NCBI GenBank assembly: GCA_012719495.1
Contig: JAAYAG010000087.1
Coordinates: forward strand, 1-64,000
DNA length: 64,000 nt
Direction: 5' to 3'
Origin: Bacteroidales bacterium
GTDB taxonomy: Bacteria > Bacteroidota > Bacteroidia > Bacteroidales > Prolixibacteraceae
The notes below the pieces were generated by a model, which did not search any database, was not told the origin of the DNA, and was given only the letters and a program-made list of their open reading frames with translations. Both the position numbers and the translations under genes were made by a program. This document shows, one piece after another, positions 35,850 through 61,589 of the stretch (positions are counted from its first letter, which is position 1; each line of letters begins with the position of its first letter).

Positions 35850-35888
35850 CGTCAACTTATTTTACACCCAGTGTATATTTTTTTTACA
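35850..35888 (+). promoter_or_regulatory. Paired activator boxes upstream of the ABC operon
   Basis: Two 17-nt boxes of the form nGTn-N9-TACA: 35850-35866 (CGTC...TACA) and 35872-35888 (TGTA...TACA), 22 nt apart centre to centre, i.e. about two helical turns. The same pair, with the same spacing and the same distance to the -24 GG, precedes tolC (61673-61711). Best explanation: binding sites of the NtrC-type regulator encoded at 60197-61561. Confidence 0.6.
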
Positions 35889-35939
35889 GTTGAATGTGGA
35901 ATATTTTAAATGACAACTGAATATCAATACATTTACTTC

Positions 35940-35956
35940 TTGGCATTGTGCTTGTA
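35940..35956 (+). promoter_or_regulatory. Candidate sigma-54 promoter of the ABC operon
   Basis: TTGGCATTGTGCTTGTA: -24 element TTGGCA with GG at 35942-35943 and -12 element TTGT, exactly 12 nt between the first G of GG and the G of the -12 box. The -12 C is replaced by T. A start about 12 nt on (near 35967) would give a 17-nt leader before the ATPase ATG. It aligns without a gap to the tolC promoter. Confidence 0.6.
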
Positions 35957-35983
35957 AAACCACATCAAAATAAATGAACGATT

Positions 35984-36658
35984 ATGATTATACTTAAAAA
36001 CATTTTCAAATACTACGACAACAAGTTTCAGCGCACATTCGTACTGAAAGATGTAAACCTTACCATAAAAGAAGGTGAATTTGTATCCATTATGGGCCCC
36101 AGCGGTGCCGGAAAATCGACGTTGCTCAACATCATTGGCATGCTGGATGAGCCAAACGAAGGCGAATACTTTTTCCTCGAGCAGCCTGCACATCAGTTAA
36201 ATGAAAAGAAGAAAACAGAGTTTCACCGAAACTATGTGGGCTTCATTTTTCAGGCTTTTCACCTGATTGATGAGATGACCGTGGCTGAAAACATTGAAAC
36301 ACCATTGATTTACAAAGGCGTAAAAAGCCGCGACCGTCAAGCCATGGTGGCCGATATGCTCGACCGTTTCAATATGGTGGCCAAAAAAGACTTGTTCCCA
36401 GCCCAACTCTCGGGCGGACAACAACAATTGGTCGGCATTGCCCGTGCCATTGTGGGCAAACCAAAACTGCTTTTGGCCGATGAACCTACCGGAAACTTAC
36501 ATTCCGATCAGGGAAAAGAGATCATGAAGCTATTACAAAAATTAAACGAAGAAGGAATTACCATCATTCAGGTTACACACAACGAAGAATTTGCCAACTA
36601 CGGAAAACGGATTATCCGCATTGCCGATGGATTGATTTCAAGCGACACAAAGCTTTAG
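35984..36658 (+). CDS. ABC transporter ATPase (MacB/LolD type)
   Basis: 224-aa nucleotide-binding subunit, the only ATPase in the export locus. Walker [10 protein letters not shown] (residues 38-46), Q-loop in [10 protein letters not shown], signature LSGGQ (142-146), Walker [12 protein letters not shown]-loop THNEEFA. The residue after LSGGQQQ, normally Arg in this family (QQQRVAIAR), is Leu149. MacB/LolD-type ATPases power mechanotransmission permeases that move substrate from periplasm or inner-membrane leaflet outward. It heads the operon of nine permease genes, so one ATPase presumably serves all of them. Confidence 0.93.
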
Positions 36659-36790: not shown

Positions 36791-39118
36791 ATGAAAACCA
36801 TTTTATTGACATTTCGAAAACTGCGCAAAAACAAAGCGGCCACTTCGCTCGGATTAGCCGGGCTGGTCGTGGGACTGGTTTGTGTCATCTACATTTTCTT
36901 TTGGGTTACCGACGAAACCAGCTACGACCGATTCCATGAAAACATCGACCGCATTTTTGTGGTACATGCCTACCTCGAAGGCGACAAACAAGAGGTTCCC
37001 TTTGGAGGTTGTCCCCCCGCAGTAGCCCCTTCGTTGGTCAACGAGTATCCCGAGGTGGAAAGCGTTTGCCGCTACATGCCCGGTCAATATTTCGAACACC
37101 TGGTTGCTTTTGGCACCCAAAAGAATATGTTGAAGACCAGCTATGCCGACCCTTCGTTGTTCGACATCTTTACAATCCCGTTTGTTTACGGCAGCAAAGG
37201 CACTCCCGGCGATCCAAACCAAATTGTGCTGACCCAAACAACTGCCTCGCGCTACTTTGGAGATGAAAACCCCGTGGGCAAAATTGTACGTTTCAACAAC
37301 AACATCGACATGACCGTAGCCGGGGTTATTAAAGACCTTCCGCACAACACCTTCCTAAAGTTCGATGCTGTTGTGCCCCTCGAAATCATGAAAAAAACAT
37401 GGGAACAGGAAAACATTTTGGACACCTGGTACAACAATAGTTTTGCAACCTTTGGCCTGTTGAAATCGCCCGATAGCTTCGACAAAATTGCGGCGGGCAT
37501 TACCAAACGCATCCAAAAAGAAATGCCCGAATCGACCAACTTCCTCAGGGCCTATCGGTTTGAAGACGGGCACTTGTACGAAGAGAAAAATATTCGCAAC
37601 GTTAAAATATTCAGTTTGATTGGTTTATTGGTTTTATTGGCCGCAACCCTTAACTTCATCAACCTTACCACCGCCCGATCGACCAAGCAAGCCAAGGAAA
37701 CCGGGCTTCGTAAATCGATTGGGGCAACGCGTGCCAATATCATCCGCCTCATTTATTCCGATGTGGCCATCGTTTGTTTCATGGCTTTTACAGCTGCGCT
37801 GTTGCTCGCATTCATCGGCCTGCCATTTTTCAACAACCTTATTGGCAAGCAAATTCTGTTCACATCGCTGTTCTCGCCCATTCCGTTCAGCATTTTCATA
37901 GGCATCTATTTGCTAACAGTTTTGCTGGCTGGTAGCTATCCCGCATTTTTCCTTTCGTCGTTTTCGGTAAGCGAAACGCTCAAATCGAGCTTTCACTCGG
38001 TTAAGAACAAAGGATTTATGCGGAATGCACTGATCGTAACCATTTTTGCAGTATCGATCGCCTTGCTGACCTCAACGCTCATCATCAGCAAACAAACGAT
38101 GTTTTTGCAAAATATGGACATGGGGTTCAACAAAGAACAATTGATGTATATCACCCTCGACGGCCAACTAAGAGAAAAAGCAAAAACACTAAAGGACGAA
38201 ATCAAACGCTCGCCCGAGGTTCTTTCAGCCTCAATAACCCAATTCTTACCCGTTAATATTGGGAGCAATGGTGAAGGTTGGAACTGGGAAGGGAAAGATC
38301 CAAACTTTAAATTGCTGGTTTCAAACTACGAAACCGATGAAGACTTTTTAGCAACCGTTGAAGCCAAACTCCTCGAAGGCAACTTTTTCAGTAGCGATCG
38401 CCAAGGTATCGTAATCAACAAAGCTTTTGCTGACGCCATTGGCTGGTCGAGTTTCGAAGGAAAAACACTGAATGCTTACGGACAGGATCGCCAAGTGGTT
38501 GGGGTGATCGAAAACATTCAATACAATTCGCTGGCCGAAACATGCCGCCCCATGGCCATTTCGAATATCGGCAATTGGGCAACCCGCTATTTGATTGTGC
38601 GCACCAATACCGATCATTATGAACAGACCATCCACACAATGAAGCAGATCTGTGAACGAATTGAGCCGAACTTTCCCTTTAAGTATGGCTTTGTGGACGA
38701 TGAATTTGCGAAGCTTGTAGAAACAGAATCGAACCTGAAACGTTTGGTTGGCATCTTTTCGGCATTTGCAATGGTCGTATTGTGTTTGGGTCTGTTGGGA
38801 GTTATCATGTTCCTGACCGAACAAAAAACCAAAGAGATTGGTGTACGGAAATGCCTGGGCGAAAGGGTGTCGTCGATCATTCTCACCCTGCTGAAACCTT
38901 TCGTATTCTCGGGGCTCATAGCCAGTGTGTTTGCCGTGCCTGCAACGTGGTTCCTGATGAACCGCTGGCTGCAAAACTACACCAACCGCATCGATTTGAA
39001 TGTGTGGATATTTGCCCTGTCGATTGTCTTTGCCATTCTCATTGCAGTTGTTACAGTAAGCTGGCAAAGCTGGCGTGCAGCAACACGAAATCCTGTGGAA
39101 AGTTTGAGATACGAATAA
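36791..39118 (+). CDS. ABC permease 1 (double FtsX/MacB-type)
   Basis: 775 aa with about eight membrane helices in two matching halves: TM1 (about 18-42), a MacB-PCD extracytoplasmic domain (43-275), TM2-TM4 (about 276-395); then TM5 (about 418-440), a second extracytoplasmic domain (to about 655) and TM6-TM8. The start of the first domain carries the family motif SYDRFHENIDRIF. Each chain thus looks like an internal pseudodimer of the 4-TM MacB permease. Its C-terminal 100 residues (KCLGERVSSIILTLLKP...) differ from permeases 2-7, apart from the last segment VSWQSWRAATRNPVESLRYE. Confidence 0.9.
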   Translation: MKTILLTFRKLRKNKAATSLGLAGLVVGLVCVIYIFFWVTDETSYDRFHENIDRIFVVHAYLEGDKQEVPFGGCPPAVAPSLVNEYPEVESVCRYMPGQYFEHLVAFGTQKNMLKTSYADPSLFDIFTIPFVYGSKGTPGDPNQIVLTQTTASRYFGDENPVGKIVRFNNNIDMTVAGVIKDLPHNTFLKFDAVVPLEIMKKTWEQENILDTWYNNSFATFGLLKSPDSFDKIAAGITKRIQKEMPESTNFLRAYRFEDGHLYEEKNIRNVKIFSLIGLLVLLAATLNFINLTTARSTKQAKETGLRKSIGATRANIIRLIYSDVAIVCFMAFTAALLLAFIGLPFFNNLIGKQILFTSLFSPIPFSIFIGIYLLTVLLAGSYPAFFLSSFSVSETLKSSFHSVKNKGFMRNALIVTIFAVSIALLTSTLIISKQTMFLQNMDMGFNKEQLMYITLDGQLREKAKTLKDEIKRSPEVLSASITQFLPVNIGSNGEGWNWEGKDPNFKLLVSNYETDEDFLATVEAKLLEGNFFSSDRQGIVINKAFADAIGWSSFEGKTLNAYGQDRQVVGVIENIQYNSLAETCRPMAISNIGNWATRYLIVRTNTDHYEQTIHTMKQICERIEPNFPFKYGFVDDEFAKLVETESNLKRLVGIFSAFAMVVLCLGLLGVIMFLTEQKTKEIGVRKCLGERVSSIILTLLKPFVFSGLIASVFAVPATWFLMNRWLQNYTNRIDLNVWIFALSIVFAILIAVVTVSWQSWRAATRNPVESLRYE

Positions 39119-39242
39119 CCTCCCAACCCACTGAGGGGGGCTTAAAACTACACAATTGGGAAATTCATGCATTGAAGTGAAAAAAAGGAATAAACGTAAA
39201 TAACAATATACAGAAAACTTAACTCCCCCATTAGGGCAGGGT
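39119..39242. repeat. GC-rich short repeats between permeases 1 and 2
   Basis: The 138-nt gap contains CCAACCCACTGAGGGGGGC (about 39123-39141) and AACTCCCCCATTAGGGCAGGGT (39221-39242). The second is, inverted, nearly the same as ACCCTGCCCCTAAGGGGGG at 41632-41651 after permease 2, so permease 2 is bracketed by an inverted pair (about 18 of 21 positions). These resemble small intergenic palindromic repeats common in Bacteroidota. Confidence 0.45.
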
Positions 39243-39256
39243 AAAACAGATTAACC

Positions 39257-41629
39257 ATGCAAAATATTTTCAAATCAACCTACCGAAATTTTATCCGTAA
39301 ACCGGCAACCAACCTGATCAATCTGGTTGGTCTGGCCGTTAGCCTAGCTTTGGTCGTCATCCTCTCGGTTTACTCGTACAGCGAACTGACCACCGACAGT
39401 CAGCATAAAAATGGCGACCGGGTTTATTTGTACTCCGACCTCGTGAATGGCCGGATTAATGCACCAGCTATGTTGAAAACCCAAATCGACCTGACTATTC
39501 CCGAAGTGGAATCGACAGTAACAGTGGGCGGTCCGTGGGACAATCCTGTTTTTCAGGTCGAAGGTCGCGACCCGATTGCGTCGGATATTATTACCGCTGA
39601 TCCCGATTTCTTTAAGCTCTTCACCTACGAGGCCATTGAAGGAAATTTGACCACGGCACTAAACGACCCTATGACCGTTGTGCTAACCAAGCCTCTGGCT
39701 GATAAATTGTTTGGCAAAGGATCAGTCGTCGGAAAAACAGTTAAAATCGACAATAAGAATTCACTTACAGTTTCGGCTGTTATAAAAGTTCCTCAGGTAA
39801 AAAGCACATTGTCGTTCAACGCGATAACCTCCAATGCTTCCAGAAAAGCCATTTACCCCAACCCGGAAGAATTCGAAAGATGGGACTATCGAAATTTCCA
39901 ATTGTTTGTGCTTTTGAAACAAGGTACAAATGCGGATGACGTATCGAATCGAATCTCAACGTTGTTCCCCGACTACGACAAGTATAAAGAAAACTACGAT
40001 TTACTGAAACTGAACCCGATAGAACAGGTATATTTTTCAAAATTTAGGCTTTATGGCAGTACTTACCTGAAACATGGCGACAAAACGAAGGTTATGATTC
40101 TGCTGCTGGTAGCAGCCCTGGTTTTGATTATCGCGTTGGTCAACTTCATCAACATTTCGTCGTCGCAATGGTCCGAAAAAATAAAGCAAACGGTTGTACT
40201 AAAAGTAATTGGCGCCGACAGAACGTCGATATTAAAAGGGGCACTTGGCGAGGCGTTTATTCTGTTCCTTTTGTCCCTTCTTTTGGCAATCCTGTTCGTT
40301 CTGCTTTTGTACCCTTTTGTAAGAAACTTTACAGGAATCAGTTTTAGTGCGTCATTACTCTATAAACCTTTGTTTTTGTTTGTTTCGGTTGGCGGTGTAT
40401 TTTTGTTAAGTCTGATTTTCAGCCTGATTCCTGCTATGCGAATTTCGTCGTCAAAAGCAGTCGATAACCTGAAAAAGTCAATTGATTCCCGAAATTCCAA
40501 GTCGGTTTCCAGAGGAATATTGGTGACTACCCAATTTACAATAGCCATTGTGCTGATTGCCTTTACGGTACTGGTACAAAAACAAGTTGATTTTGGAAGC
40601 AGTAACTTCGGGTTCGACAAAGAAAACGTGATAGGTATAAAACTCACTCCTCAGTTAATGGAGAAAAAGGATGTGCTGAAAAAGCTCATTCAGGACAACC
40701 CAAATACAGGCAAAGTTTCATTTACACAGTATTTTCCGGGCAAGCTAAACGAACACTGGTCCAGACCCCAGGTTATAAACGGAGAAAAGAAGCAGTTTGG
40801 CTTCGATACATTCAATGGCGATGCCAATTTGCTGTCGATTCTTAGTTTGCAATTGGTTGAAGGCCGCTTTTATTCGGATGATTTGGCTACAGATTCAAAA
40901 AAAATGGTAGTGAACGAAACCTTTGTCCGCGAGCATAAAATGGAAAATCCTGTCGGGACAAAATTAGCCATGGGTTCTGGCGAAAATTCTCCGCTTTCTG
41001 AGATTGTGGGAGTTGTGAAAGATTTTCATTATAAGCATGCCAACATTCCTATTGGTTCACTGATCATTAAAAATGACACGTACGTTTCCTATTGTCTGGT
41101 CACGGTTTCCACAAGCAACTTTAAATCGCTCAGTAGCTTTGTACAATACGTTAAAAATGAAACCAGCAAACTTTCACCAACTTTCCCGGTCGAGGTTAGT
41201 TTCCTCGATCAGGCGATTGAAAACCTCTACCAATCCGAAATTCAGTTCAGGCGGACATTTACGCTTTTTGCCGGATGTGCCATTGTAATTTGTTGCCTGG
41301 GCATTTTTGCCATGTCGATGTTTGCCTGCCAGCGGCGGATAAAGGAAGTCGGCATCCGCAAGGTGAATGGTGCCAAAGTTTCGGAGGTACTGGCCATGCT
41401 GAACAAAGACTTTGTGAAATGGGTCGCTATTGCTTTTATAATTGCAACGCCCATTGCCTGGTACTTCATGAACAAGTGGCTGGAAAGTTTTGCTTGCAAA
41501 ACCGAGCTCAGTTGGTGGATATTTGCATTGGCCGGATTAATGGCAATGGGAATTGCGCTGCTGACAGTGAGCTGGCAAAGCTGGCGAGCGGCTATAAGGA
41601 ACCCGGTGGAAAGTTTGAGGTATGAATAA
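39257..41629 (+). CDS. ABC permease 2 (double FtsX/MacB-type)
   Basis: 790 aa, same eight-helix, two-ectodomain plan as permease 1. TM1 is NLINLVGLAVSLALVVILSVYS and is followed by TTDSQHKNGDRVYLY, a weak form of the FHEN-DRIY motif. The C-terminal tail from KEVGIRKVNGAKVSEVLAML onward is almost the same as in permeases 3-7, and a 48-nt stretch (41417-41464) is identical to 43893-43940 in permease 3. GC-rich repeats flank the gene on both sides. One Cys (SFACKTELSWW) replaces the Tyr found in the other homogenised tails. Confidence 0.9.
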   Translation: MQNIFKSTYRNFIRKPATNLINLVGLAVSLALVVILSVYSYSELTTDSQHKNGDRVYLYSDLVNGRINAPAMLKTQIDLTIPEVESTVTVGGPWDNPVFQVEGRDPIASDIITADPDFFKLFTYEAIEGNLTTALNDPMTVVLTKPLADKLFGKGSVVGKTVKIDNKNSLTVSAVIKVPQVKSTLSFNAITSNASRKAIYPNPEEFERWDYRNFQLFVLLKQGTNADDVSNRISTLFPDYDKYKENYDLLKLNPIEQVYFSKFRLYGSTYLKHGDKTKVMILLLVAALVLIIALVNFINISSSQWSEKIKQTVVLKVIGADRTSILKGALGEAFILFLLSLLLAILFVLLLYPFVRNFTGISFSASLLYKPLFLFVSVGGVFLLSLIFSLIPAMRISSSKAVDNLKKSIDSRNSKSVSRGILVTTQFTIAIVLIAFTVLVQKQVDFGSSNFGFDKENVIGIKLTPQLMEKKDVLKKLIQDNPNTGKVSFTQYFPGKLNEHWSRPQVINGEKKQFGFDTFNGDANLLSILSLQLVEGRFYSDDLATDSKKMVVNETFVREHKMENPVGTKLAMGSGENSPLSEIVGVVKDFHYKHANIPIGSLIIKNDTYVSYCLVTVSTSNFKSLSSFVQYVKNETSKLSPTFPVEVSFLDQAIENLYQSEIQFRRTFTLFAGCAIVICCLGIFAMSMFACQRRIKEVGIRKVNGAKVSEVLAMLNKDFVKWVAIAFIIATPIAWYFMNKWLESFACKTELSWWIFALAGLMAMGIALLTVSWQSWRAAIRNPVESLRYE

Positions 41630-41631
41630 AC

Positions 41632-41658
41632 ACCCTGCCCCTAAGGGGGGGGCTGGGA
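41632..41658. repeat. GC-rich short repeat after permease 2
   Basis: ACCCTGCCCCTAAGGGGGG and following GCTGGGA just after the permease 2 stop; inverse match to 39221-39242. Could also form a short CCCC/GGGG hairpin. Confidence 0.4.
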
Positions 41659-41702
41659 ACTGCCAAAAATAAAGACTTGAAAATATTTAAAACAGATGAT
41701 AT

Positions 41703-44105
41703 ATGATCCGATTTTTAGCCTTATATCTGCGCAACATCAGAAACAATCCAAGGTTGTTCCTGATCAACATTCTCAGTTTTTCAATTGGGATTGTAGCGGT
41801 TTTGTTCATTACCTTATTTGTTGCAAAAGAATTTAGCGCTGACCGTTTTCATAGCAAGCATAAAGATATCTACAGGCTGTTACACAACGTGCAGGACGCT
41901 CCGGTCAGGTATTCTCAGACAGAATACCCTTTGGGAAAACTACTTCAAAACAATCATCCTGAAATTGAAGAATACGCGAGGTTTAACGATCTTGAAGGAT
42001 ATAACTTAACTGTTGACAACAAAGAATATACAGATCAGAAGATCAGTTTTACCGATCGTTCCTTTTTCTCCATTTTTGATTTTAAATTGCAGACAGGCGA
42101 TCTCAATTCATTATTCAAACAGCCCAACACAATTATTATTGACCAGCCAACGGCCAAACAATATTTCAATACCATTGACGTAATTGGTAAAACGATTACT
42201 TCTGAATATCCTGGGGTAGAAGAAAAAAAGGAATATACGATTGTTGGTGTACTTGAAAATTATCCCGAAGAATCGACTTTACAACCCCATCTGATTGCTG
42301 ATATAAAAAAGATGGCGGAAGAATATGAAGATCAGTATTTTTCCTCTTTTCCACAATTATTTTTGTACATTCCTAACTGTATTGACCCACAAAAAATGGC
42401 GCAGGATTTTTCTGCCACCTACAATCGAAAATACAATGAATTAACAGGACGCAGTGAACCTGATGATCGGAACAGGTATTACCTGCAAAAGTTAACCGAC
42501 CTCTATTTAAAATCATCGGATGTTACCGACAAACTTCCTAAAGGAGATTATGTGCTTGTATGGGTTTTAACTGGCATCGGCTTTGTCCTACTGCTGGTAA
42601 CATTTATGAATTATTTGATTCTAAATTTGGGCATTAGCCTTAAAAACCAAAAACAAAATCAGATCAGAACCATATTGGGCAGCAGTTCTGGCTGGTTAAA
42701 AATGAAGTACGCCTCTGAATCGGTTTTTTATTCACTGATCACCTTCATTGTGGCTTTATTCCTGCTTCCTGTTGTTCATCAGCTTGTTGCTAATTTTTCG
42801 AATTACCGGTACACGCTTTTTTCCAGTTCTGATCCTAAACTTATTGTATTGTTTCTGCTGTTTTTAATCGCAATGGGTGTTTTGAGCGGGTATTTGCAAT
42901 ATGTTTTATTGTTCCAACGGAAAAACCCTAATGCACAGCTGGCTAGCTTTAAAACCCGAAAACCACACTTTCGATACCTTATTGAATTTCAATTGCTCAT
43001 TTTTATTGTAATCGTTTCCAGTGTGATCGTTATTAACCGACAAATGAATTTTATACGCAACCAGGATTTGGGTTTTGATCTTAAAAACACGGTAACCGTG
43101 ACTTTAAACAATGATTTTGACAGACAACGCTTTATGGAGGAATGCTCCAACTATCCTATGGTTAAAAATGTGTCACTTGGCCATACACTTTTTAACAATA
43201 CACCCTATTTACATGAAGTTACCGTTGAGAAAAGCCGAGAAGTTGTTAAAGCTCAGTGTATATGGGGAGACAACAACTACATCAGCACCTACAACATCAA
43301 ATTGCTTTCGGGTAAAAACATTGATGGAGCCAAATTACCGCCGGTTGCTTCGGCATATTCTTACCCCAGAGATAATGATGTGCTGGATATTTTGGTCAAT
43401 GAAGAATTTGTGAAAAAATCAGGTTTAAAAGATCCATTGGGAACCATGATTTCGATAAACCATAACGGAACGAATAAAGGACGAATAACTGGAATTATTG
43501 GAGATGTAAAAAATACCCCATTTTATAATTCTGTCACACCACTTATTATTGGCTATGGCATGAACTATATGCCATCTATTGTAGTATCTGTTAATGAGGG
43601 ACAGGTGGATGAGTTCAATAAAATGGCTGATAATTTCTTTATAAAGATTGGTAAAAAGTCCTATTTGGGCTATCAGACATTTAATTTCGATTTTGAAGCA
43701 TGGTATCATAAAGAACAGGTATTAATGCAATTGTTGACATTGCTGTCAATGATTATTCTTGCTATCCTCTTTTTGGGATTATTAGGGATTAGTCTCTTTC
43801 TTTCAGAAAACAAGACCAAAGAAATAGGCATCCGTAAAATTAACGGGGCAAGGGCCTCAGAGATACTCTCGATGCTTAATATAGACTTTGTAAAATGGGT
43901 CGCTATTGCTTTTATAATTGCAACGCCCATTGCCTGGTACGCCATGCACAAATGGCTCGAAAGCTTTGCCTATAAAACCGAACTGAGTTGGTGGATCTTC
44001 GCACTGGCGGGGTTGATGGCACTGGGGATTGCACTGCTAACGGTTAGCTGGCAAAGCTGGAGGACGGCGAGGAGAAATCCGGTGGAGGCATTGCGGTATG
44101 AATAA
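41703..44105 (+). CDS. ABC permease 3 (double FtsX/MacB-type)
   Basis: 800 aa. TM1 LFLINILSFSIGIVAVLFITLFV, then SADRFHSKHKDIYRLL as the ectodomain motif. The middle membrane block (about 275-400) is TGIGFVLLLVTFMNYLILNLG onward, and a third hydrophobic run precedes the second ectodomain (YLIEFQLLIFIVIVSSVIVINRQ). The tail KEIGIRKINGARASEILSML...SWRTARRNPVEALRYE belongs to the homogenised set. Codon and base composition of the body looks more AT-rich than the tail, which supports a separate history for the tail. Starts 73 nt after permease 2. Confidence 0.9.
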   Translation: MIRFLALYLRNIRNNPRLFLINILSFSIGIVAVLFITLFVAKEFSADRFHSKHKDIYRLLHNVQDAPVRYSQTEYPLGKLLQNNHPEIEEYARFNDLEGYNLTVDNKEYTDQKISFTDRSFFSIFDFKLQTGDLNSLFKQPNTIIIDQPTAKQYFNTIDVIGKTITSEYPGVEEKKEYTIVGVLENYPEESTLQPHLIADIKKMAEEYEDQYFSSFPQLFLYIPNCIDPQKMAQDFSATYNRKYNELTGRSEPDDRNRYYLQKLTDLYLKSSDVTDKLPKGDYVLVWVLTGIGFVLLLVTFMNYLILNLGISLKNQKQNQIRTILGSSSGWLKMKYASESVFYSLITFIVALFLLPVVHQLVANFSNYRYTLFSSSDPKLIVLFLLFLIAMGVLSGYLQYVLLFQRKNPNAQLASFKTRKPHFRYLIEFQLLIFIVIVSSVIVINRQMNFIRNQDLGFDLKNTVTVTLNNDFDRQRFMEECSNYPMVKNVSLGHTLFNNTPYLHEVTVEKSREVVKAQCIWGDNNYISTYNIKLLSGKNIDGAKLPPVASAYSYPRDNDVLDILVNEEFVKKSGLKDPLGTMISINHNGTNKGRITGIIGDVKNTPFYNSVTPLIIGYGMNYMPSIVVSVNEGQVDEFNKMADNFFIKIGKKSYLGYQTFNFDFEAWYHKEQVLMQLLTLLSMIILAILFLGLLGISLFLSENKTKEIGIRKINGARASEILSMLNIDFVKWVAIAFIIATPIAWYAMHKWLESFAYKTELSWWIFALAGLMALGIALLTVSWQSWRTARRNPVEALRYE

Positions 44106-44118
44106 AAACGTATAAACT

Positions 44119-46617
44119 ATGAACACAACTAATCTAAAAATCATTTTCAGGAACATCAGGAAACAAAAGACTGCCAACCTTTTGAGCATCCTTGTTTTAA
44201 CTTTCGGGATGGCTTCCTTTATGCTGATATTCTACTACATTAAATACGAGAAAGGATTCGACCGTTTTTGGCCCGATGCCAACCAAATGTACCGCATTAC
44301 ATTGAACAAGAGCAATCCCGATGGAACAGTTTTGAAAACTGCAGGGAATTATCCCGGATTAGGTTGGGTAATGGCCGATGAAATTCCTGAAATTGAATCG
44401 TCAACAAGCCTTTGGGAAGATAAGATAATGGCTTATACCCCCGAACGGAATATGACCGATGTTCACTTCTTTTGGAGCGACCCTTCCGTTTTCAGGGTTT
44501 TCGATTGCAAATTTTCATATGGGAATGCAAAAGAACCGTTCCCTACAATCAGATCGATGGTAATTTCTGAATCTGCTGCAAAAGTTTTGTTTGGCACCGA
44601 TAACCCTTTGGGGAAAACTTTTAAGATCAATGAAGGATGGGAGTTTGAGGTATCGGGTGTTTTTGCCGATTTCTCAACGGAAAGCCACCTAAAGGTCGAT
44701 ATGGTTGGAACTTGCAACCAACTTTTCTATTACATGAGCCATTTCGATTACACCACTTCAACGTTACGAAACGACCCGAACGTGCGCTCTTCGTTGCCAA
44801 ATCCTTCATCGGCTTGGTTGTGGACCAACCCCGACGCATATACCTACGTTAAGCTTAAAAAAGGCACATCGCCCGAAAAGGTAAATGCTGCATTTGGAAA
44901 TATTTACAAGAAATATACCTCGCACTTGATTTCTTCAGGTGTTAAGTCTGAATTTGTGATGCAACCAGTTTCTGACATCCACACCGGACCAACATTGGCC
45001 CACGAAACATCGCCCACTATCGACAGCAAAACCATTGCCGCACTTTGGGTAATTGCTATCATGGCTTTGCTCATGAGTTGGATTATCTTCATCAATTTCC
45101 AGATAACACAAAGCGTAGAGAGGTCGAAGGAAATTGGGATGAAAAAGGTTATAGGGGCAAAGCGGTCAGAGCTTACACTACAAATTTTACTTCAATCGTT
45201 CGTGGTTAATGCCATAAGCATGCTCATGGCATTTGCGGTTTTTGTTGCATTAAGAAATGCATTAAGCAACTTTCTCGATTTGAAGCACCTTATCCCCATT
45301 GATGTGCCGAGTATTGTGCTGTTTATTTCGCTTTTCGCAGTTGGGTCTGTTTTAAGCGGTCTTTATCCTGCACTAATCTTGTTGCCACGAAAGCCAAATC
45401 TTCTGCTTTCTAAGAATTTTGTGCAAAAAAACGACGGATTTGGGCTTCGACGTTCATTAACTGTTTTTCAGTTTGCAGCGTCCATTGCGCTAATTATTGC
45501 AACAACGGTGATTGTTAGGCAGGTCGATTTCATGAAGAACAAAGACCTTGGGCTTACCATCAACCAAACAGCATATTCCTATATCCCAATGAGCGACCTG
45601 AAAAAACCAGGATCGACAGAAAAACTAAGGGCTTTTATGAACGAAGTAAATCGAATGCCCGGTGTTCGAAGTTCAACACTTACATCGAGTATCCCTGGTA
45701 ACGCAATCAGTTTTCACAGCAACCAGATTTTTGCTTCCGATGCACCCGATAAAGCTGGCATAAGCTATGGGGTGCTTACAGTTGAAAACCATTTCGACGA
45801 GGTATATCAACCCAAATTATTGGCCGGTAGATTATTTTCTGAAGAGGATAAACCCGAGAACAAACTTCTGGTATTGAACCACGAAGCATGCGAAAAGCTT
45901 GGGTTGGGATTGCCCGAAAATGCCGTGGGTAAATTTGTTAATGTAAGTCTTCACGATTATATCAACATCGACAAGGTAAACTATCAGGTTTGCGGTGTAG
46001 TTGAGGATTTTCACCATGAATCGCCCCGAAAAATGATTGAACCATTGCTGATTATTAACGATCTTAAATGGAAATACGATATTGGCTATGTTTCTGTAGC
46101 ATTCGATCAAAAATCAGGGAACAATGCTTTCGCGGCATTTCGTAAAAAGTGGGAAACATTTTATCCTGCCGATCCTTTCGATTTCAGGTTTACCCAGGAA
46201 ACCTATCGACTTCAAATGAAATCGGACGAAAAACTGGCAGGTCTCTTTTCGGCGTACACCCTGTTGTCGATTTTGCTGGCAATTATTGGATTGTTGGGAT
46301 TGGCATCGAACGCAACCAGAAAAAGGGTAAAAGAGATCGGCATTCGAAAAGTGAACGGAGCACGAATTTCGGAAATACTGGTTTTGCTCAACAAGGACTT
46401 TGCATTTGGGATATTGATTGCTTTTGTAATAGCAGTCCCTATTTCAGCTTTTGCCATGAATAAATGGCTTGAAAACTTTGCCTATAAATCAGAACTAAGC
46501 TGGTGGATTTTCGCATTAGCAGGCTTGCTGGCATTGGGAATTGCGCTGCTGACAGTGAGCTGGCAAAGCTGGCGAGCTGCAACCAGAAATCCGGTGGAGG
46601 CACTCAGGTATGAATAA
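44119..46617 (+). CDS. ABC permease 4 (double FtsX/MacB-type)
   Basis: 832 aa, the longest of the array, because both ectodomains are larger (first one to about residue 300; it contains VHFFWSDPSVFRVFDCKFSYG). Ectodomain motif GFDRFWPDANQMYRI. The conserved cytoplasmic loop SKEIGMKKVIGAKRSELTLQ follows TM2, showing the first half also keeps the KEIG(I/M)KKVxGA coupling motif. The last 56 nt of the coding region (46558-46613) are identical to the end of permease 5 (48938-48993). Only 13 nt separate it from permease 3, so one transcript is certain to span them. Confidence 0.9.
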   Translation: MNTTNLKIIFRNIRKQKTANLLSILVLTFGMASFMLIFYYIKYEKGFDRFWPDANQMYRITLNKSNPDGTVLKTAGNYPGLGWVMADEIPEIESSTSLWEDKIMAYTPERNMTDVHFFWSDPSVFRVFDCKFSYGNAKEPFPTIRSMVISESAAKVLFGTDNPLGKTFKINEGWEFEVSGVFADFSTESHLKVDMVGTCNQLFYYMSHFDYTTSTLRNDPNVRSSLPNPSSAWLWTNPDAYTYVKLKKGTSPEKVNAAFGNIYKKYTSHLISSGVKSEFVMQPVSDIHTGPTLAHETSPTIDSKTIAALWVIAIMALLMSWIIFINFQITQSVERSKEIGMKKVIGAKRSELTLQILLQSFVVNAISMLMAFAVFVALRNALSNFLDLKHLIPIDVPSIVLFISLFAVGSVLSGLYPALILLPRKPNLLLSKNFVQKNDGFGLRRSLTVFQFAASIALIIATTVIVRQVDFMKNKDLGLTINQTAYSYIPMSDLKKPGSTEKLRAFMNEVNRMPGVRSSTLTSSIPGNAISFHSNQIFASDAPDKAGISYGVLTVENHFDEVYQPKLLAGRLFSEEDKPENKLLVLNHEACEKLGLGLPENAVGKFVNVSLHDYINIDKVNYQVCGVVEDFHHESPRKMIEPLLIINDLKWKYDIGYVSVAFDQKSGNNAFAAFRKKWETFYPADPFDFRFTQETYRLQMKSDEKLAGLFSAYTLLSILLAIIGLLGLASNATRKRVKEIGIRKVNGARISEILVLLNKDFAFGILIAFVIAVPISAFAMNKWLENFAYKSELSWWIFALAGLLALGIALLTVSWQSWRAATRNPVEALRYE

Positions 46618-46639
46618 ACAATAACTAAAAAACACGAAT

Positions 46640-48997
46640 ATGTATTGGGCACAATTTAAACTTATGTTTCGAAATCTGAGGAGAAATAAACTCCATTCGA
46701 TAATTAATATTTTCGGGTTGGCCATTGCCGTGACCTTTGTGTTAGTATTATCCGCTTATGTTTCAAATGAGACTTCGGTCGATTCATTTCATGAAAACAA
46801 GGCGAGGATATATCGGGTACATGGTGACAATATTGAAACATTCGCACCTCCATACGGACAATATATTTTAGACAATATCTCAGAAGCAGAAAGTTACACC
46901 AGGGTTTTCTCTCAGAATGGAACCGTTAGCTATAAAGATTTGAAACTCGAAAGCGGTAATTGCCTTTTGGTCGATTCGGCTTTCTTTACGATGTTTTCAT
47001 ATCCCTTAGTAGTTGGAGATTCCCATCAATTGTTGTCAGCCAAAGAAAATGTTGTATTATCAGAAAGCTTTGCCAAAATAGTTTTTCGAGACAAAAATCC
47101 CATCGGGGAGAGCATCGAATTTAGCGGGAGTCAGTTTACTGTTTCTGGCATCTTCAAAGATTTTAAAGACGACACCCATTTTGCTAAGCCCAATATGATC
47201 TTCAATTTTACGATGTTGCCTGCAATATGGGGAATGAAAGACGAAAACTCGTCTAAATATTTTCTGCAAGATTATGGGAACAGTTCATTCGGGCTATATG
47301 TAATGGCACATAAAAACAGCAACATAAAAGCAAAAGAAGACGAACTTCTTAAAAAATCAAAAGATTTTTATTGGGTTTTTCAGAACGACAGAAACCACAA
47401 AATTTCATTTATGCCGCTCGAAGAGGTTTACTTTAACCGGTCGAGCCTCTCGTACATTGGGACGCGGCAAGGCAATAAAAAATTCCTTAGTATTCTTTCA
47501 GTTATTGCTTTAGCCATTGTAATAATTGCAGCCATCAATTACATTAATTTAAGCATTACCCAATCGGTTAACAGAGCCAGGGAAGTAGGTATAAAAAAGA
47601 TTATCGGCTCATTTCGCCGGAATATCATCAACCAATTCTTAGTAGAATCAATCATTGTCAGCCTAATTTCAACTTCGATAGCCATTTTGCTTACAATCAT
47701 TGTTTTACCAAGCTTCAATCATTTGGTTAGCACAAGCTTTACCTTTTCCGTTGTGTTCAATAATGGTTTTATACTCCGTAGCATAGTTATTGTTTTTGCC
47801 ATCGGGTTCATTGCAGGTTTAGTTCCTGCGCTAATTCTTTCAGGATATAAACCTGTTGAAATTGTAAAGGGTGTTCCGCCTCGGCTTAAAAGTAATTTCA
47901 GTCAAAAAGCTATGGTTGTTTTTCAGTATACTGTTTCCATCGCATTGATTATATTGGTTATACTCATTATCAAGCAAACGAATTACATGAAAAATTACGA
48001 TCTCGGATTCGATAAAGATCATACATTTTACATAAAAATGAACAGTGAAACCAATAAGCAAAAAAATGCGTTCAGAAATGAGTTATTAAAAATCCCAGGG
48101 GTGAAGGCAGTTTCTTTTTGCAGCGATTTTCCAGGAGGCCCCATCAACAATCAATCCTTTGTTTATAACGAAAAACCTTTGAGTTTCGATGAGTTCAGGG
48201 TCGATACAGCTTTCTTTTCGGCACTTGGCATCACCTTGGAAAAAAGAATTTCAGTTACTGACAATGCTAATCAGAACCAGAAATTTGCAGTGCTTTTAAA
48301 TCAAACAGCGGTTAATGAACTGGAACTTACACCCCCGTATTCCGAATTCAAATTATTCGATAACATGATAAAGGTAAGCGAAGTGGTTGAAGACATGAAT
48401 TTCAGGTCACTATACCAAAAACCCCGTCCCACTTTATTCATGGTATCAGATGTGAATTGGGCTCCATACGTATTGATAAGAGGCTCAGGTGAAAATTTAA
48501 GTTCGATAGTAGCACAGGCAAAAACCATTTTTAAAGATCTAGCCCCGTCTGAACCATTAATGCTGAATTTCATTGATGATGCTTTAAATGAAGCCTACCA
48601 AAAAGAAGAACGTACTGCCAAAATAGTGGGTTATTTCGCAATTTTCGCAAGACTGATATCATCACTTGGAATATTTGCTCTTGCTAGCTATTCAACTCAA
48701 AATCGCAAAAAAGAAATAGGACTTCACAAAGTAAACGGAGCCAAAATTTCTGAAATTCTTTTCCTGCTAAATAAAGACTTTTTGAAATGGGTAGCTATTG
48801 CCTTTGTGATTGCGACACCAGTTGCCTTGTATGCCATGAACAAATGGCTCGAAAGTTTTGCCTACAAAACCACACTGAGTTGGTGGATTTTTGCTCTGGC
48901 AGGTTTGCTGGCATTGGGAATAGCATTACTCACAGTAAGCTGGCAAAGCTGGCGAGCTGCAACCAGAAATCCGGTGGAGGCACTCAGGTATGAGTGA
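46640..48997 (+). CDS. ABC permease 5 (double FtsX/MacB-type)
   Basis: 785 aa. TM1 SIINIFGLAIAVTFVLVLSAYV, motif SVDSFHENKARIYRVHG. First-half coupling loop REVGIKKIIGSFRRNI; second-half loop KKEIGLHKVNGAKISEIL, where His-Lys replaces the usual Arg-Lys. The tail LSWWIFALAGLLALGIALLTVSWQ... matches permeases 4, 6 and 7 and its last 56 coding nt are identical to those of permease 4. The 96-nt gap after it holds an apparent fossil of another permease 3' end (see 49037-49069). Confidence 0.9.
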   Translation: MYWAQFKLMFRNLRRNKLHSIINIFGLAIAVTFVLVLSAYVSNETSVDSFHENKARIYRVHGDNIETFAPPYGQYILDNISEAESYTRVFSQNGTVSYKDLKLESGNCLLVDSAFFTMFSYPLVVGDSHQLLSAKENVVLSESFAKIVFRDKNPIGESIEFSGSQFTVSGIFKDFKDDTHFAKPNMIFNFTMLPAIWGMKDENSSKYFLQDYGNSSFGLYVMAHKNSNIKAKEDELLKKSKDFYWVFQNDRNHKISFMPLEEVYFNRSSLSYIGTRQGNKKFLSILSVIALAIVIIAAINYINLSITQSVNRAREVGIKKIIGSFRRNIINQFLVESIIVSLISTSIAILLTIIVLPSFNHLVSTSFTFSVVFNNGFILRSIVIVFAIGFIAGLVPALILSGYKPVEIVKGVPPRLKSNFSQKAMVVFQYTVSIALIILVILIIKQTNYMKNYDLGFDKDHTFYIKMNSETNKQKNAFRNELLKIPGVKAVSFCSDFPGGPINNQSFVYNEKPLSFDEFRVDTAFFSALGITLEKRISVTDNANQNQKFAVLLNQTAVNELELTPPYSEFKLFDNMIKVSEVVEDMNFRSLYQKPRPTLFMVSDVNWAPYVLIRGSGENLSSIVAQAKTIFKDLAPSEPLMLNFIDDALNEAYQKEERTAKIVGYFAIFARLISSLGIFALASYSTQNRKKEIGLHKVNGAKISEILFLLNKDFLKWVAIAFVIATPVALYAMNKWLESFAYKTTLSWWIFALAGLLALGIALLTVSWQSWRAATRNPVEALRYE

Positions 48998-49036
48998 CGA
49001 AATCCCGATAACGAAGCCAATCTGGTCACAGAAAAA

Positions 49037-49069
49037 GCAATCGGGATAGAAGCACTGAGATACGAATAA
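49037..49069 (+). pseudogene. Fossil permease C-terminus
   Basis: In the gap after permease 5, an in-frame stretch reads AIGIEALRYE then TAA. EALRYE-stop is the exact terminus of permeases 3-7, yet no permease body precedes it; only the last ~7 codons are recognisable. It most simply marks a past deletion, duplication or tail exchange at this junction. The match is short, so chance cannot be excluded. Confidence 0.4.
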
Positions 49070-49093
49070 AACAACAATTTAAAACGATTAACA

Positions 49094-51427
49094 ATGAAAT
49101 GGTTCAATTTAAAATTAGTCATCCGAAACCTGATTAAAAACAAGGTTTATTCGTCTCTAATAATCGGAGGTTTTGCATTAGGGTTTGCGACCGTTATCCT
49201 TATTGGACTGTTCTACAACAACGAAACCAGTGTAAATAAAGATTTTGCAAACCACAAACAACTATACAGGCTCTACGATGCCAAAAAGAACCGGTGCAAC
49301 CTGAACTGGGATTTATTCCCTGTCCTTGCAACTGATTTTGCTTCGGTTGAAAATGCCTGCCCGCTTGAGTATAACGTATGGAAAATGACTGTTAAAAATG
49401 AACAAACACATGCGTTTACAGAAATTAAGCACCTACTGACCACTACCAATAATTTCTTTTCAATATTTTCGGTTGAAATGGTTGAAACTTTAGCCAGTAA
49501 TCCGTTCGACGGGAAAGAGTCTGTTGTCATTTCACGAGCAATAGCCAAAAAACTTTTCGGAACACAAAACCCGCTAGGACAACAGATTAACGTGAACAAC
49601 TTTTTTTCAGGCACTGTCACCGGAATCTTCAACGAACTTCCCCCAAATTCCAGTTTCCAGGCTGATGTTATCCTTAACAGCGAGAATGAGGAATTCCGGA
49701 TGTCAACAACCTGTAACAATGGCAAATGTTACAACCCTACCAACCTTTTTGTAATGCTTAAAAGTGGGGCAAAACCCAGCACTTTTGCCAATGAGTTGAA
49801 CAATTCCTCTACGCTTAAATCGCTTGATGTTGACAGTTTGGCACTGCAAAGCCTTGACGATATTTACCTTTCGGAGCTCACCATGAAAAGCAGCCATGCC
49901 AAAGGGAACCCCGCACTATTGAAAATCTTCATCGCTATTGCCGCGCTCATCCTGCTCCTTTCGAGCATCAACTACCTAAGCTACTCCATTTCGATGCAAT
50001 ATGCCAAACTGAAGGAAATCGGTATCAACAAAACCAATGGTGCCGACTGGAAAAATTTAGTCAGCTATATATTCACCGAAGTCACATTCGGCATTCTCAT
50101 CTCTTTTCTCCTTTCTGTTGTTATCGCTGTGTTGGTTATGCCCTATTCTGAAAGTCTTTTCGGGAAAGTGCTTCATGTTACCTGGCACAACTGGATTTCT
50201 GTTGCTCCTTTCTTTTTGGCCGCAGTGTCAGTTGTAATTTGTATCAATAGTTTAGCACCGATGTACATCTTGTCGAAGTTTAAAATTACCGAATTCCTAT
50301 CAGGGTTCAAGGGAAAACATAACAGGCGGCAATTCGGAAAACAAGCCATGTTAACCTTCCAGCTTACAGTTTCGATTGCCCTGATTGCGGTGGTATTGAT
50401 TATTTTCAAACAACTTAGCTATGTAAAGCACTCCGATTTGGGTTTCGATCGCGAACTGTTGGTAAGGATTGACCTCCCCTACGAATTTCAACAAACAAAC
50501 ACCATGAGGCAAGAAATCGCCAAACTTCCGTTTGTTAAGGGGACTTCGTTGAGTTCTGGTTGTCCAGGAATGATTAACAACCGATATGGCAGCAATACAG
50601 GAGAGAATAGTTTTGATATCAACTGCATACTGGTGGGGGATAATTATCTTGAAACGATGGGAATTGAGCTGCTTGAAGGACGAAAATTTCTGGATGGCGA
50701 TCTAAATAAGTCTTGTCTGATTAATGAAGAGGCCCTAAAACAATTTGGCTGGGACAGTTTCGAGGGAAAAAGATTCAATAACGGAGTGGAAGGTGGCTAC
50801 GAAGTAATTGGCATCCTGAATGACTTCAAATTCGAATCGTACCACAGCACCGTTGAGCCTTTGGCTTTGCTTTTTGATGGGGGCTCTTACAGCAATGTGC
50901 TTTCGGTACGGCTTGCCTCTGGGAATATCGGGCAGGATATCGGGCAGATTAAACAAATATGGAAATCCATTTCACCACACGAACCTTTTAGTTTTATTTT
51001 TTACGACGATCTTTTCCAATCCATGTATGAGAAGGAAGAGAAGCTGGCCAGTTCAATCACCTTCTTTTCGCTTATAGCTATTGTACTGACCTGCATGGGT
51101 ATCCTGGGTCACATTTTTATGATTTGCCTGAACCGGGTGAAAGAAATCGGCATCCGCAAAATCAACGGTGCCCGCATCTCAGAAGTAATGGCTCTGCTGA
51201 ACCGCGACTTTGTGAAATGGGTTGCCATTGCTTTTGTAATTGCTACGCCCATTGCCTACTTCGCCATGAATAAATGGCTCGAAAACTTTGCCTACAAAAC
51301 CGAACTGAGCTGGTGGATTTTTGCGTTGGCTGGTTTGCTGGCAATGGGAATTGCATTGCTAACTGTTTCGTTTCAATCGTGGAAAGCGGCAACAAGAAAT
51401 CCGGTGGAAGCGCTGAGGTATGAATAG
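49094..51427 (+). CDS. ABC permease 6 (double FtsX/MacB-type)
   Basis: 777 aa. TM1 YSSLIIGGFALGFATVILIGLFY, followed by SVNKDFANHKQLYRLYDAK. The first ectodomain carries a Cys-containing insertion (STTCNNGKCYNPTNLFV). First-half coupling loop KEIGINKTNGADWKNL; second-half loop KEIGIRKINGARISEVMALL. The tail pairs with permease 7 in having VSFQSWKAATRNPVEALRYE in place of the VSWQSWRA of permeases 2-5. It follows the fossil tail by 24 nt. Confidence 0.9.
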   Translation: MKWFNLKLVIRNLIKNKVYSSLIIGGFALGFATVILIGLFYNNETSVNKDFANHKQLYRLYDAKKNRCNLNWDLFPVLATDFASVENACPLEYNVWKMTVKNEQTHAFTEIKHLLTTTNNFFSIFSVEMVETLASNPFDGKESVVISRAIAKKLFGTQNPLGQQINVNNFFSGTVTGIFNELPPNSSFQADVILNSENEEFRMSTTCNNGKCYNPTNLFVMLKSGAKPSTFANELNNSSTLKSLDVDSLALQSLDDIYLSELTMKSSHAKGNPALLKIFIAIAALILLLSSINYLSYSISMQYAKLKEIGINKTNGADWKNLVSYIFTEVTFGILISFLLSVVIAVLVMPYSESLFGKVLHVTWHNWISVAPFFLAAVSVVICINSLAPMYILSKFKITEFLSGFKGKHNRRQFGKQAMLTFQLTVSIALIAVVLIIFKQLSYVKHSDLGFDRELLVRIDLPYEFQQTNTMRQEIAKLPFVKGTSLSSGCPGMINNRYGSNTGENSFDINCILVGDNYLETMGIELLEGRKFLDGDLNKSCLINEEALKQFGWDSFEGKRFNNGVEGGYEVIGILNDFKFESYHSTVEPLALLFDGGSYSNVLSVRLASGNIGQDIGQIKQIWKSISPHEPFSFIFYDDLFQSMYEKEEKLASSITFFSLIAIVLTCMGILGHIFMICLNRVKEIGIRKINGARISEVMALLNRDFVKWVAIAFVIATPIAYFAMNKWLENFAYKTELSWWIFALAGLLAMGIALLTVSFQSWKAATRNPVEALRYE

Positions 51428-51492
51428 GCAGGTCTCTTTTTGAATGCGGATTTTTAGAAGAGAATTGAAGTGATAATATTAAATGAATAAAA

Positions 51493-53922: not shown

Positions 53923-54008
53923 GTTCCAAAAAAGAAAAACAAAAAAAGCCAGAGTTGAAGATTTGTGCATTGAAATAGAAAATAACAAATGAAGTTTACA
54001 ATATAGCC

Positions 54009-56375: not shown

Positions 56376-56410
56376 GTTATGGATCATTCAAAATTCTAAA
56401 AGGAATCAAA

Positions 56411-58863: not shown

Positions 58864-60207
58864 TTACCAAACCAGCCGAAACACTGTTTTTCCAGGTTCA
58901 GAATTGCACCCGATACTGCCACCATGTGCCCGCATAATTTGGCGCGAATGACTGAGCCCAATTCCAGTACCGGTGGCTTTTGTGGTGAAAAAGGGAACAA
59001 ATATTTCTTCTAAAATCTCCTCAGGAACACCTGGTCCATTGTCGCTCACCAAAATTTCTACCTTGTCGCCCGGAAGCTTATTTGCATGAATTTCAATTTT
59101 GGGGCTTTCACAACCTTGCAATGCCTCGACACTGTTTTTCACCAAATTGATGACCACCTGAACCATCATTTGCTCGTCTATTTGAACCTCAAAGTCGGGA
59201 TCTGGGGCATAAAACTGAATGGCAACTCTGTATTCAGCTTTCAAAGGCGATACCAAAATGCTCAGTCGATCGAACAGATTCTGAACGCTTACCTTCGAAA
59301 ATTGCGGAACTGGAACTTTGGTCAACATGCGGTAGCTTTGCACAAAACGGATAAGCCCCTCTCCACGTTCGCCAATCACTTCGAGGCCTTTCATGGTACT
59401 TTCAATGGCATCGTCGGAGCAATTGGGTTGAACTTCAAGTTTCTCTTTCCATATTGAATTAAGTGACTGTGCAATAGATGTTACGGGCGCCAATGAATTC
59501 ATAATTTCGTGACTCAAAACACGTATCAATTTCACCCACGAATCGAGTTCTTTTCGCTCCAATTCGCCTCGAATATCCTGAAGGGTTATGAGTTTAATGT
59601 CTTCTTCTTTCAAGTTGATTACCGAACAGCGCGTAACAATTTGAATGGCGTCGTTGCCCTTTCGCAGGGTAATAACTTGCTTATTCGATCCGGCCAAGAG
59701 TTGAAGTTCATTTTTGAATTTCGGATCGACCCGATCAAGCTGGGTGATGTGTGTGAGATTTTGAATTCCAAATAAATCGAGTGCAGCCGGGTTCACCTCT
59801 GTAATAAATCCTTTTTCGTTGAGAACCAACACACCCGTTCCGATGTGTTGCAAAATTTCGCTGAAATAGCGCTCGCGAATTTGATTGCTCACCTTGGCCT
59901 TTTGCAAAATCACGTTCAGTTCGTTTAGGCTGTTGTGCAAATCATTAATAATGGCATTTCCGGTTTTCATTGGGAACCGCAAGGTGGTATCGTCGTTATT
60001 AATTGCTTGAATGAAAAAACTGATTTGACGGTTTGTAGAATTCAAAAAATTAACGAATTCGGCTACCAAAATCACTTCAACCGAACTTAAAAAAATGATG
60101 AAAAACAGAGATTTACCCATCATCACCAAACACCCAATTGCAAAGGCCAATCCAACAATCACCACCAAACGGATTACGAGCAAACGGTTGTAGTGCTTAA
60201 AGGCCAT
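58864..60207 (-). CDS. NtrB-like membrane sensor histidine kinase
   Basis: 447 aa. Two membrane helices at the N-terminus (about 10-50) with almost no loop, so no extracellular sensor domain; then a linker, a PAS domain (about 115-190: GVLVLNEKGFITEVNPAALDLFG), a HisKA-like helix with VLSHEIMNSLAPVTS and an HATPase domain with N-box INLVKNSVEAL and TGIGLSHSRQIM. The HEIMNSLAP H-box is that of kinases paired with NtrC-type regulators. Its start overlaps the regulator stop by 11 nt. Likely senses membrane or envelope state (inference from its buried sensor helices) and phosphorylates the regulator. Confidence 0.9.
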   Translation of the reverse strand: MAFKHYNRLLVIRLVVIVGLAFAIGCLVMMGKSLFFIIFLSSVEVILVAEFVNFLNSTNRQISFFIQAINNDDTTLRFPMKTGNAIINDLHNSLNELNVILQKAKVSNQIRERYFSEILQHIGTGVLVLNEKGFITEVNPAALDLFGIQNLTHITQLDRVDPKFKNELQLLAGSNKQVITLRKGNDAIQIVTRCSVINLKEEDIKLITLQDIRGELERKELDSWVKLIRVLSHEIMNSLAPVTSIAQSLNSIWKEKLEVQPNCSDDAIESTMKGLEVIGERGEGLIRFVQSYRMLTKVPVPQFSKVSVQNLFDRLSILVSPLKAEYRVAIQFYAPDPDFEVQIDEQMMVQVVINLVKNSVEALQGCESPKIEIHANKLPGDKVEILVSDNGPGVPEEILEEIFVPFFTTKATGTGIGLSHSRQIMRAHGGSIGCNSEPGKTVFRLVW

Positions 60208-61561: not shown

Positions 61562-61581
61562 ATTTTCAAACACTAAGGTCA

Positions 61582-61589
61582 CAAAGGTA
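61582..61589 (-). promoter_or_regulatory. -7 box of the regulator-kinase operon
   Basis: Minus-strand TACCTTTG is a perfect TAnnTTTG match, 20 nt before the regulator ATG at 61561. It supports housekeeping transcription of the regulator and rules out the upstream GTG as the start. A -33 box is not clear. Confidence 0.5.

Follow-up and report, generated by a model that had tools for sequence, protein, structure and literature searches.

Two predicted sigma-54 promoters with a shared candidate operator and a candidate bend site at a MacB/FtsX-type exporter locus of the Bacteroidales

The window analysed here is a 64,000-nucleotide stretch (positions 1 to 64,000) of contig JAAYAG010000087.1 from a Bacteroidales bacterium of the Prolixibacteraceae (assembly GCA_012719495.1). 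It carries a MacB/FtsX-type exporter set, consisting of ABC ATPase, MacB_PCD+FtsX permease, adaptor and TolC. An ABC ATPase gene (35984..36658, plus strand, PF00005) is the first gene after a predicted promoter, P1, and is followed on the same strand by nine tandem genes for MacB_PCD+FtsX permeases (36791..58810, Pfam). A second predicted promoter, P2, precedes plus-strand genes for a TolC-type outer membrane channel (61805..63136, PF02321) and a periplasmic adaptor that scores above the NCBIfam TIGR01730 cut-off (63211..64000, continuing to contig position 64467). Inspection of the contig sequence 3' of the adaptor suggests a small gene, a second ABC ATPase (64990-65685) and a tenth permease (66293-68683). 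The plus-strand terminator-like matches listed all lie inside reading frames, and none falls in the gaps between permease genes.

The nine permeases are 22-34% identical to each other overall, and their last ~100 residues, ending NPVE[AS]LRYE, are far more alike. Permease genes of other genera share about 66-83% DNA identity with the 3' ends of the nine genes. Gene conversion was considered as the main cause of the alike 3' ends and rejected, since third-position identity at identical residues is barely raised there (0.41-0.55 versus 0.28-0.52). The ninth permease begins at ATG 56411 and has an in-frame stop at 56513-56515 within its first hydrophobic stretch, the listed ORF starting from the next TTG; the stop could reflect a broken gene, a read error or a second start. 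The best NCBIfam models are DarD for the ATPase, DarC for the adaptor, and ADOP followed by DarB for the first permease, with all scores below the cut-offs (DarB 109/700, DarC 190/450 and DarD 256/375 bits; ADOP also below). Because the best models of both ATPase and adaptor belong to the darobactin exporter, even though below cut-off, peptides are hinted at as the cargo. Unlike the darobactin exporter DarBCDE or ADOP, the window has nine permease genes in a row.

Between the two units, on the minus strand, lie genes for a histidine kinase (58864..60207; Pfam PAS and HATPase) and a response regulator (60197..61582, likely start ATG at 61561), convergent to the P1 unit and divergent from the P2 unit. 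The regulator has the receiver, Sigma54_activat and Fis-type HTH domains of the NtrC type (PF00072, PF00158, PF02954). The classical sigma-54-contact loop is GAFTGA; here the loop reads GAFTDA. Viewed by eye, the kinase has a hydrophobic N-terminus, with two closely spaced hydrophobic stretches and no sizeable outside part, which suggests the mere idea of sensing inside the membrane or by way of the permeases. In the Bce-type modules of Firmicutes the regulator is of the OmpR type. The window shares with them a two-component kinase almost without an outside part, encoded beside FtsX-type permeases, and differs in its NtrC-type regulator and predicted sigma-54 control.

The preliminary description of this DNA placed four elements (two activator boxes, the -24 GG and the -12 G) at identical relative positions in P1 and P2, and the sequence bears out all four coordinate pairs exactly, every offset being 25,823. 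The list was incomplete, as it missed a third conserved element at 35910-35934 and 61733-61757. All features of both promoters are on the plus strand. P1 comprises candidate activator box 1 (35850..35866, CGTCAACTTATTTTACA, left arm weak), candidate activator box 2 (35872..35888, TGTATATTTTTTTTACA, a 17-bp inverted repeat), the third element (35910..35934, ATGACAACTGAATATCAATACATTT) and a sigma-54 -24/-12 match (35941..35956, TGGCATTGTGCTTGTA; -24 GG at 35942, -12 G at 35954). The corresponding features of P2 are box 1 (61673..61689, TGTAAAAGAATTTTACA, with perfect 7-bp arms), box 2 (61695..61711, TGTCTAATTTATTTACA), the third element (61733..61757, TAAAGCGTTTATTTAAAGATTATTG) and a sigma-54 match (61764..61779, TGGCACATCCTTGGCT; -24 GG at 61765, -12 G at 61777). 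Both matches carry the sigma-54 signature of the TGGCAC-N5-TTGC type, with 12 bp from the first G of GG to the -12 G (TGGCATTGTGCTTGT, TGGCACATCCTTGGC); the -12 of P1 is GT, not GC. Box 1 starts 92 bp upstream of the -24 GG in both promoters. Ungapped identity between P1 and P2 is 55/128 over 128-bp stretches, elements included, so the earlier statement that the surroundings are otherwise divergent stands. With the GG set as -25/-24, the predicted transcription starts are ~35967 (P1) and ~61790 (P2). The tolC frame is open from GTG 61784, and in view of the predicted P2 start ATG 61805 is the more likely beginning of the gene; it lies 28 nt past the P2 -12 G, a gap that is the same in many relatives.

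The boxes are 17-bp inverted repeats with the consensus TGTMWAW-N3-WTTKACA. They had been described as sharing nGTn-N9-TACA at a distance of 22 bp. Both that sequence and that distance are present; the asymmetric reading was discarded, as the boxes are inverted repeats whose symmetric form is conserved in relatives. Locus L001, from another genus, has CGTCAACTTATTATACA at the place of P1 box 1 and an identical copy of P1 box 2. Three copies of the exact double box, GT-N10-TACA-N6-GT-N10-TACA, were counted in the 4.19-Mb genome, and P1 and P2 account for two of them; the third, in a stretch of C17, yielded no composite with a sigma-54 match in the spacing-agnostic scan described below. When one mismatch is allowed the count in the genome is 17, versus 16 for the reversed pattern. 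The boxes by themselves are therefore no proof, and the comparison across loci is the real support for an operator. Perfect single boxes elsewhere in the genome (stretches in C57, C100 and C126) gave no composite. Separately, ~120 bp of the window (34373-34491) recur with 83% identity elsewhere in the genome (L114:1329-1459), near the perfect single box at C126:6627.

The scan covered the window, 8 further stretches of its genome and 80 + 30 loci of other genomes, in total 1,583,835 bp, mostly loci of related regulators, with the duplicates L081, L085 and L111 left out. A composite was scored wherever two boxes spaced 17-33 bp apart preceded a sigma-54 GG by 40-259 bp. There are 47 composites in these 1.58 Mb, versus 0 in the reversed-sequence control. 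Although the scan was agnostic to spacing within these limits, the boxes of a pair are 21-24 bp apart in 44 of the 47, the other three (L009, L054) having a spacing of 33 bp. Box 1 lies 91-96 bp from the GG in 27/47 and 103-105 bp from it in 10/47, with none at 97-102 bp; the remaining 10 are scattered from 78 to 250 bp, several of them being second sigma-54 matches for pairs already counted. The two distance groups are about one helical turn apart, as expected for a DNA loop this long in which the activator has to face the polymerase. Sites in the 30-locus set alone cover 18 genus labels.

The third element lies between the boxes and the -24. Alignment of 35 sites, with shifts of at most 2 bp, gives the 25-column consensus TAA-N4-CTGATaaTCAG-N4-TTA, in palindromic form TAA-N4-CTGATNATCAG-N4-TTA, centred ~20 bp upstream of the -24. 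For this alignment L054 (pair spacing 33) and L003 and L105 (near-copies of L002 and L104) were left out, and L088 was entered by hand with an alternative overlapping pair. The element contains 12.4 bits of information, versus 4.7 +/- 0.25 (maximum 5.3) in 100 shuffled sets treated alike, and its distance is constant to the -24 and not to the boxes. The two half-sites are equally conserved on average. Single elements are often lopsided, including the two in the window: the P1 element, centred at about -45, matches the consensus at 7/8 positions in its right half and 4/8 in its left (matrix score 11.5), and the P2 element at 7/8 in its left half and 5/8 in its right (matrix score 9.9). The element resembles the IHF consensus WATCARNNNNTTR read rightwards and again read leftwards, and the best match to that consensus in the linker has 8/9 positions at P1 and at P2. 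According to passages in two papers (PMC8421141, PMC9519438), IHF recognises this consensus and kinks DNA at two points 9 bp apart. The A|R and Y|T steps of YTGATNATCAR are likewise 9 bp apart and would fit the IHF kinks if the steps are so assigned.

The same element is found at promoters of other activators. Of the 110 regions examined upstream of other regulators, 53 supplied 67 candidate sigma-54 sites; the element is present at -34 to -30 with a score above 5 in 26 of these sites, versus a mean of 0.33 and a maximum of 2 in control windows; under a stricter sigma-54 threshold it is present in 9/24, versus a control mean of 0.014. An IHF-consensus site between enhancer and -24 is accordingly seen both in the 35-site consensus and at these other promoters. 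Equal conservation of the half-sites was found again in the 26 sites together with 3 own-genome sites; the 26 were selected with a symmetrised matrix, which favours symmetry, so the 35-site alignment, made without such a matrix, is the cleaner evidence. From site to site the two halves show a negative correlation (-0.45 and -0.34). Tandem palindromes of their own, 20-23 bp apart, are present in 13/29 other-activator promoters, versus 1.5 in the shuffled control; TGTCCATTTTTGGACA and TGTCCATGACTGGACA in L109 are an example. In the genome of the window, sigma-54 matches within 1.5 kb of other activators have the element at C25 (two) and C5, and it was not seen at the sigma-54 matches flanking the activator genes on C103 and C115, two of five such genes. 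The two matches at C25 (L133, L127) lie beside another activator, with boxes of the GTCCCA/TGGGAC type and the same third element; the gene beside them is presumably PorP/SprF-like. Similar boxes are present in L199 of G003, a genome that is assigned, like that of the window, to the Prolixibacteraceae.

The palindrome of the element has 64 matches in the genome of the window, versus 15 for the reversed pattern; the two window copies, with 5 mismatches each, are absent from the 64. A strict pattern of half-element plus TTGC-type -12 gave 7 matches versus 5 reversed in 41 genomes of the phylum, with scattered gaps and in numbers too small to weigh. A looser half-element pattern gave 5 versus 2 reversed in the window's own genome, and one of the five, at C25, has the expected gap of 6.

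As to what might bind the element, PF00216 matches in the genome comprise two small proteins of the HU/IHF family (C100:20016 and C126:47178) and a third, partial match. Both small proteins fall below the NCBIfam cut-offs for IHF (alpha, beta) and for HU, so an IHF heterodimer was not recognised among them and the binder is called HU/IHF-type only; a homodimer would account for the symmetry of the element. We propose, from the sequence features given above, that the third element is a candidate HU/IHF-type bend site. It might instead be contacted by the activator family itself or, akin to an upstream element, by the sigma-54 polymerase, and its place directly upstream of the -24, at a distance kept to the -24 and not to the boxes, is what such a contact would look like. 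Such a contact fits poorly with the presence of the element at promoters of other activators and with a consensus that is 25 bp long, two-fold symmetric and IHF-like in both directions. The 64 genomic palindromes versus 15 reversed, of which sigma-54 matches were checked at C25 only, also tell against it. We regard the contact reading as unlikely, though it keeps a real share of the probability.

The preliminary description took the boxes to be a likely operator of the NtrC-type regulator encoded between the two promoters, and the comparison supports this assignment. Leaving out the duplicates L081 and L085, 31 loci encode a regulator with 56% or more identity to that of the window, and 30 of them carry a composite at the usual distance. 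The exception, L006, has a box pair but no sigma-54 match at that distance. Among loci with more distant regulators only L015 and L036 have such a composite. Cultivable relatives that carry the site include Marinifilum flexuosum DSM 21950 (L005) and Labilibaculum sp. K2S (L002). In 104 loci with enough sequence, a box pair within 700 bp is strongly associated with the recognition helix TRQTLYNK (29 loci with both, 71 with neither, one with the helix only, three with the pair only; p = 3e-21, for relatives that are phylogenetically non-independent and from which duplicate loci were only partly removed). In the helix-only locus, L096, the pair sits further upstream. Two of the pair-only loci carry SRQTLYNK, while L036, the remaining one, differs in its helix and also has a deviant operator. 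Regulator-specific palindromes upstream of the -24, the mark of an NtrC-type enhancer, are thus present as judged by comparison. The boxes could belong to some other DNA-binding protein, a repressor or one-component regulator, and the single boxes elsewhere in the genome would suit that reading; it is nonetheless improbable, given that the pair tracks the recognition helix over the 104 loci, is fixed in its distance to the sigma-54 match, and in all but one of the 31 closest loci accompanies such a match close to the regulator gene. That the boxes are the putative operator of the neighbouring NtrC-type regulator is well supported.

Each of the two promoters has counterparts of its own: L001 and L196 for the ATPase side, L082 and L083 for the regulator side. 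In L001 the ATPase-side promoter is kept upstream of an 87%-identical ATPase, 5.6 kb from the regulator-side site of that locus. If the likeness of P1 and P2 reflected recent copying, with a geometry of no functional meaning, their place within one cluster would be expected; their identity of 55/128, the separate counterparts and a layout kept in 30 loci of other genomes make this very improbable. Chance matches in AT-rich intergenic DNA, which the AT-rich boxes and a one-mismatch double box no commoner than its control might suggest, are scarcely credible beside 47 composites versus 0 in the control and 18 genus labels in the 30-locus set. Both explanations are already contradicted by the comparison. 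Two composite promoters per locus, as in the window, also occur in L097 (2912 and 3620) and L015 (9626 and 3770). The block of P1 and ATPase is 81% identical in DNA between two genera (window 35789-36634 and L001:3441-4286), versus 67% for the regulator and kinase of the same two genera.

A sequence model of 27 composites, with P1 and P2 in the training set, was run over 37 genomes. In the window's own genome, this search, which had been set as a check, returned P2 (7.4e-17) and P1 (1.0e-14), both training members, as the only strong matches; after them come overlaps with these two sites on the antisense strand (4.1e-6 and 0.003), and then matches with E of at least 0.04. In G017, about a dozen matches fall below 1e-5 among the matches listed. 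Thirty further matches in relatives, picked by eye from the stronger listed ones outside the studied sites, were examined, and in 23 the first downstream ORF is an exporter gene (16 MacB/FtsX permeases, 2 ABC ATPases, 4 TolC and 1 adaptor). The other seven have a transglutaminase-like protein followed by a permease (L197), no near gene and different boxes (L199), a 3-keto-disaccharide hydrolase (L207), an Rce1-like protein (L215), CarboxypepD_reg proteins, one with a TonB plug domain (L216, L218), or a metallo-beta-lactamase-fold protein (L217). In four of the 30 (L198, L212, L216, L219) no match to a loose sigma-54 expression was found, and L223 fits the model only without box 1. Since the first ORF is an exporter gene in 23/30, the candidate operator marks, for the most part, an exporter regulon in which the permease genes may be scattered. 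A search for internal sigma-54 promoters in the permease array of the window gave one weak coding-strand match, at 57661, with an element score of 3.9.

These comparisons establish, at the level of DNA and protein sequence, a three-part layout that is conserved, phased, and linked to the recognition helix and to exporter genes; from them we infer the binding, phosphorylation, sigma-54 dependence, bending, operon extent and inducing signal that the following scheme assumes. Upon a signal, the neighbouring kinase presumably phosphorylates the NtrC-type regulator. Two regulator dimers would bind the tandem 17-bp palindromes near -109 and -87, 22 bp apart and on nearly the same face of the DNA, and so build up the AAA+ activator. 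The element near -45 would be occupied by a dimeric protein of the HU/IHF type that folds the DNA back, so that the activator could meet the sigma-54 polymerase at -24/-12 and open the promoter. P1 would then yield one ATPase and nine permeases, and P2 the channel, the adaptor and probably the second ATPase and tenth permease, the joint product being a MacB/FtsX-type exporter with many permeases. We consider it highly probable that this proposal holds, with a third element whose role is probably architectural. The finding is sound and broader than the preliminary description claimed.

NtrC/glnA, ZraR and AtoC are NtrC-type two-component systems whose enhancers serve sigma-54 promoters. The window system shares with them an activator with receiver, AAA+ and Fis-type HTH domains, a -24/-12 promoter, and tandem palindromic enhancer sites about 85-110 bp upstream; it differs in the GAFTDA loop and in its predicted control of MacB/FtsX exporter genes. 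According to passages in PMC3897727 and PMC7962754, Proteobacteria and Desulfovibrio offer established cases of IHF acting between the activator sites and a sigma-54 promoter, and an IHF site at -43 is described for D. vulgaris orp2 in a passage of PMC3897727. As far as these passages go, orp1/orp2 likewise have an IHF-consensus site between activator palindromes and the -24/-12, whereas the consensus described here is two-fold symmetric, fixed in place, shared by several activators and found in Bacteroidota. Passages of a 2025 matrix study (PMC12316311) predict sigma-54 control of COG0577 ABC antimicrobial-peptide permeases in Bacteroidia and Gammaproteobacteria and count permease control in Bacteroidia among unreported processes. 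That prediction concerns the same promoter class upstream of the same permease class; the main text has no mention of IHF, integration host factor, MacB or upstream activator sites, and the passages contain no operator, regulator or spacing. In the part of the open literature searched, neither the operator TGTMWAW-N3-WTTKACA nor a paper on the bend-element rule in Bacteroidota was found, nor anything closer on Bacteroidetes sigma-54 with IHF, BHFa, NtrC and permeases, or FtsX with response regulators. Against these sources the operator, the phasing and the bend element look new, while sigma-54 control of such permeases had been predicted before (PMC12316311).

The results provide a predicted operator, regulator and regulon for a widespread, little understood class of Bacteroidota exporters, whose members could be found by sequence and whose inducer could be sought with two reporter fusions. 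The symmetric, position-locked candidate bend element amounts to a testable general rule for the build of sigma-54 enhancers in Bacteroidota. A wider reading, which we hold tentatively and consider quite possible, is that Bacteroidota sigma-54 promoters have a built-in symmetric site for an HU/IHF-like homodimer and that Prolixibacteraceae have a master switch of 'spare' permeases. If so, the element ~20 bp upstream of the -24 would let any activator sit whole helical turns further upstream, and one activator in Prolixibacteraceae and relatives would control scattered 'spare' permease genes whose products share one ATPase, adaptor and channel.

Two minor observations concern the distribution of the element. 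An identical copy of the palindrome is present near the ends of three contigs (C44:83-107, C67:60-84, C89:55-79), and because of this contig-end position the copies probably lie within a repeat, such as an insertion sequence or rRNA flank. The gammaproteobacterial loci L064, L075 and L079 have related regulators and sigma-54 candidates, with a weaker element at nearly the same offset.
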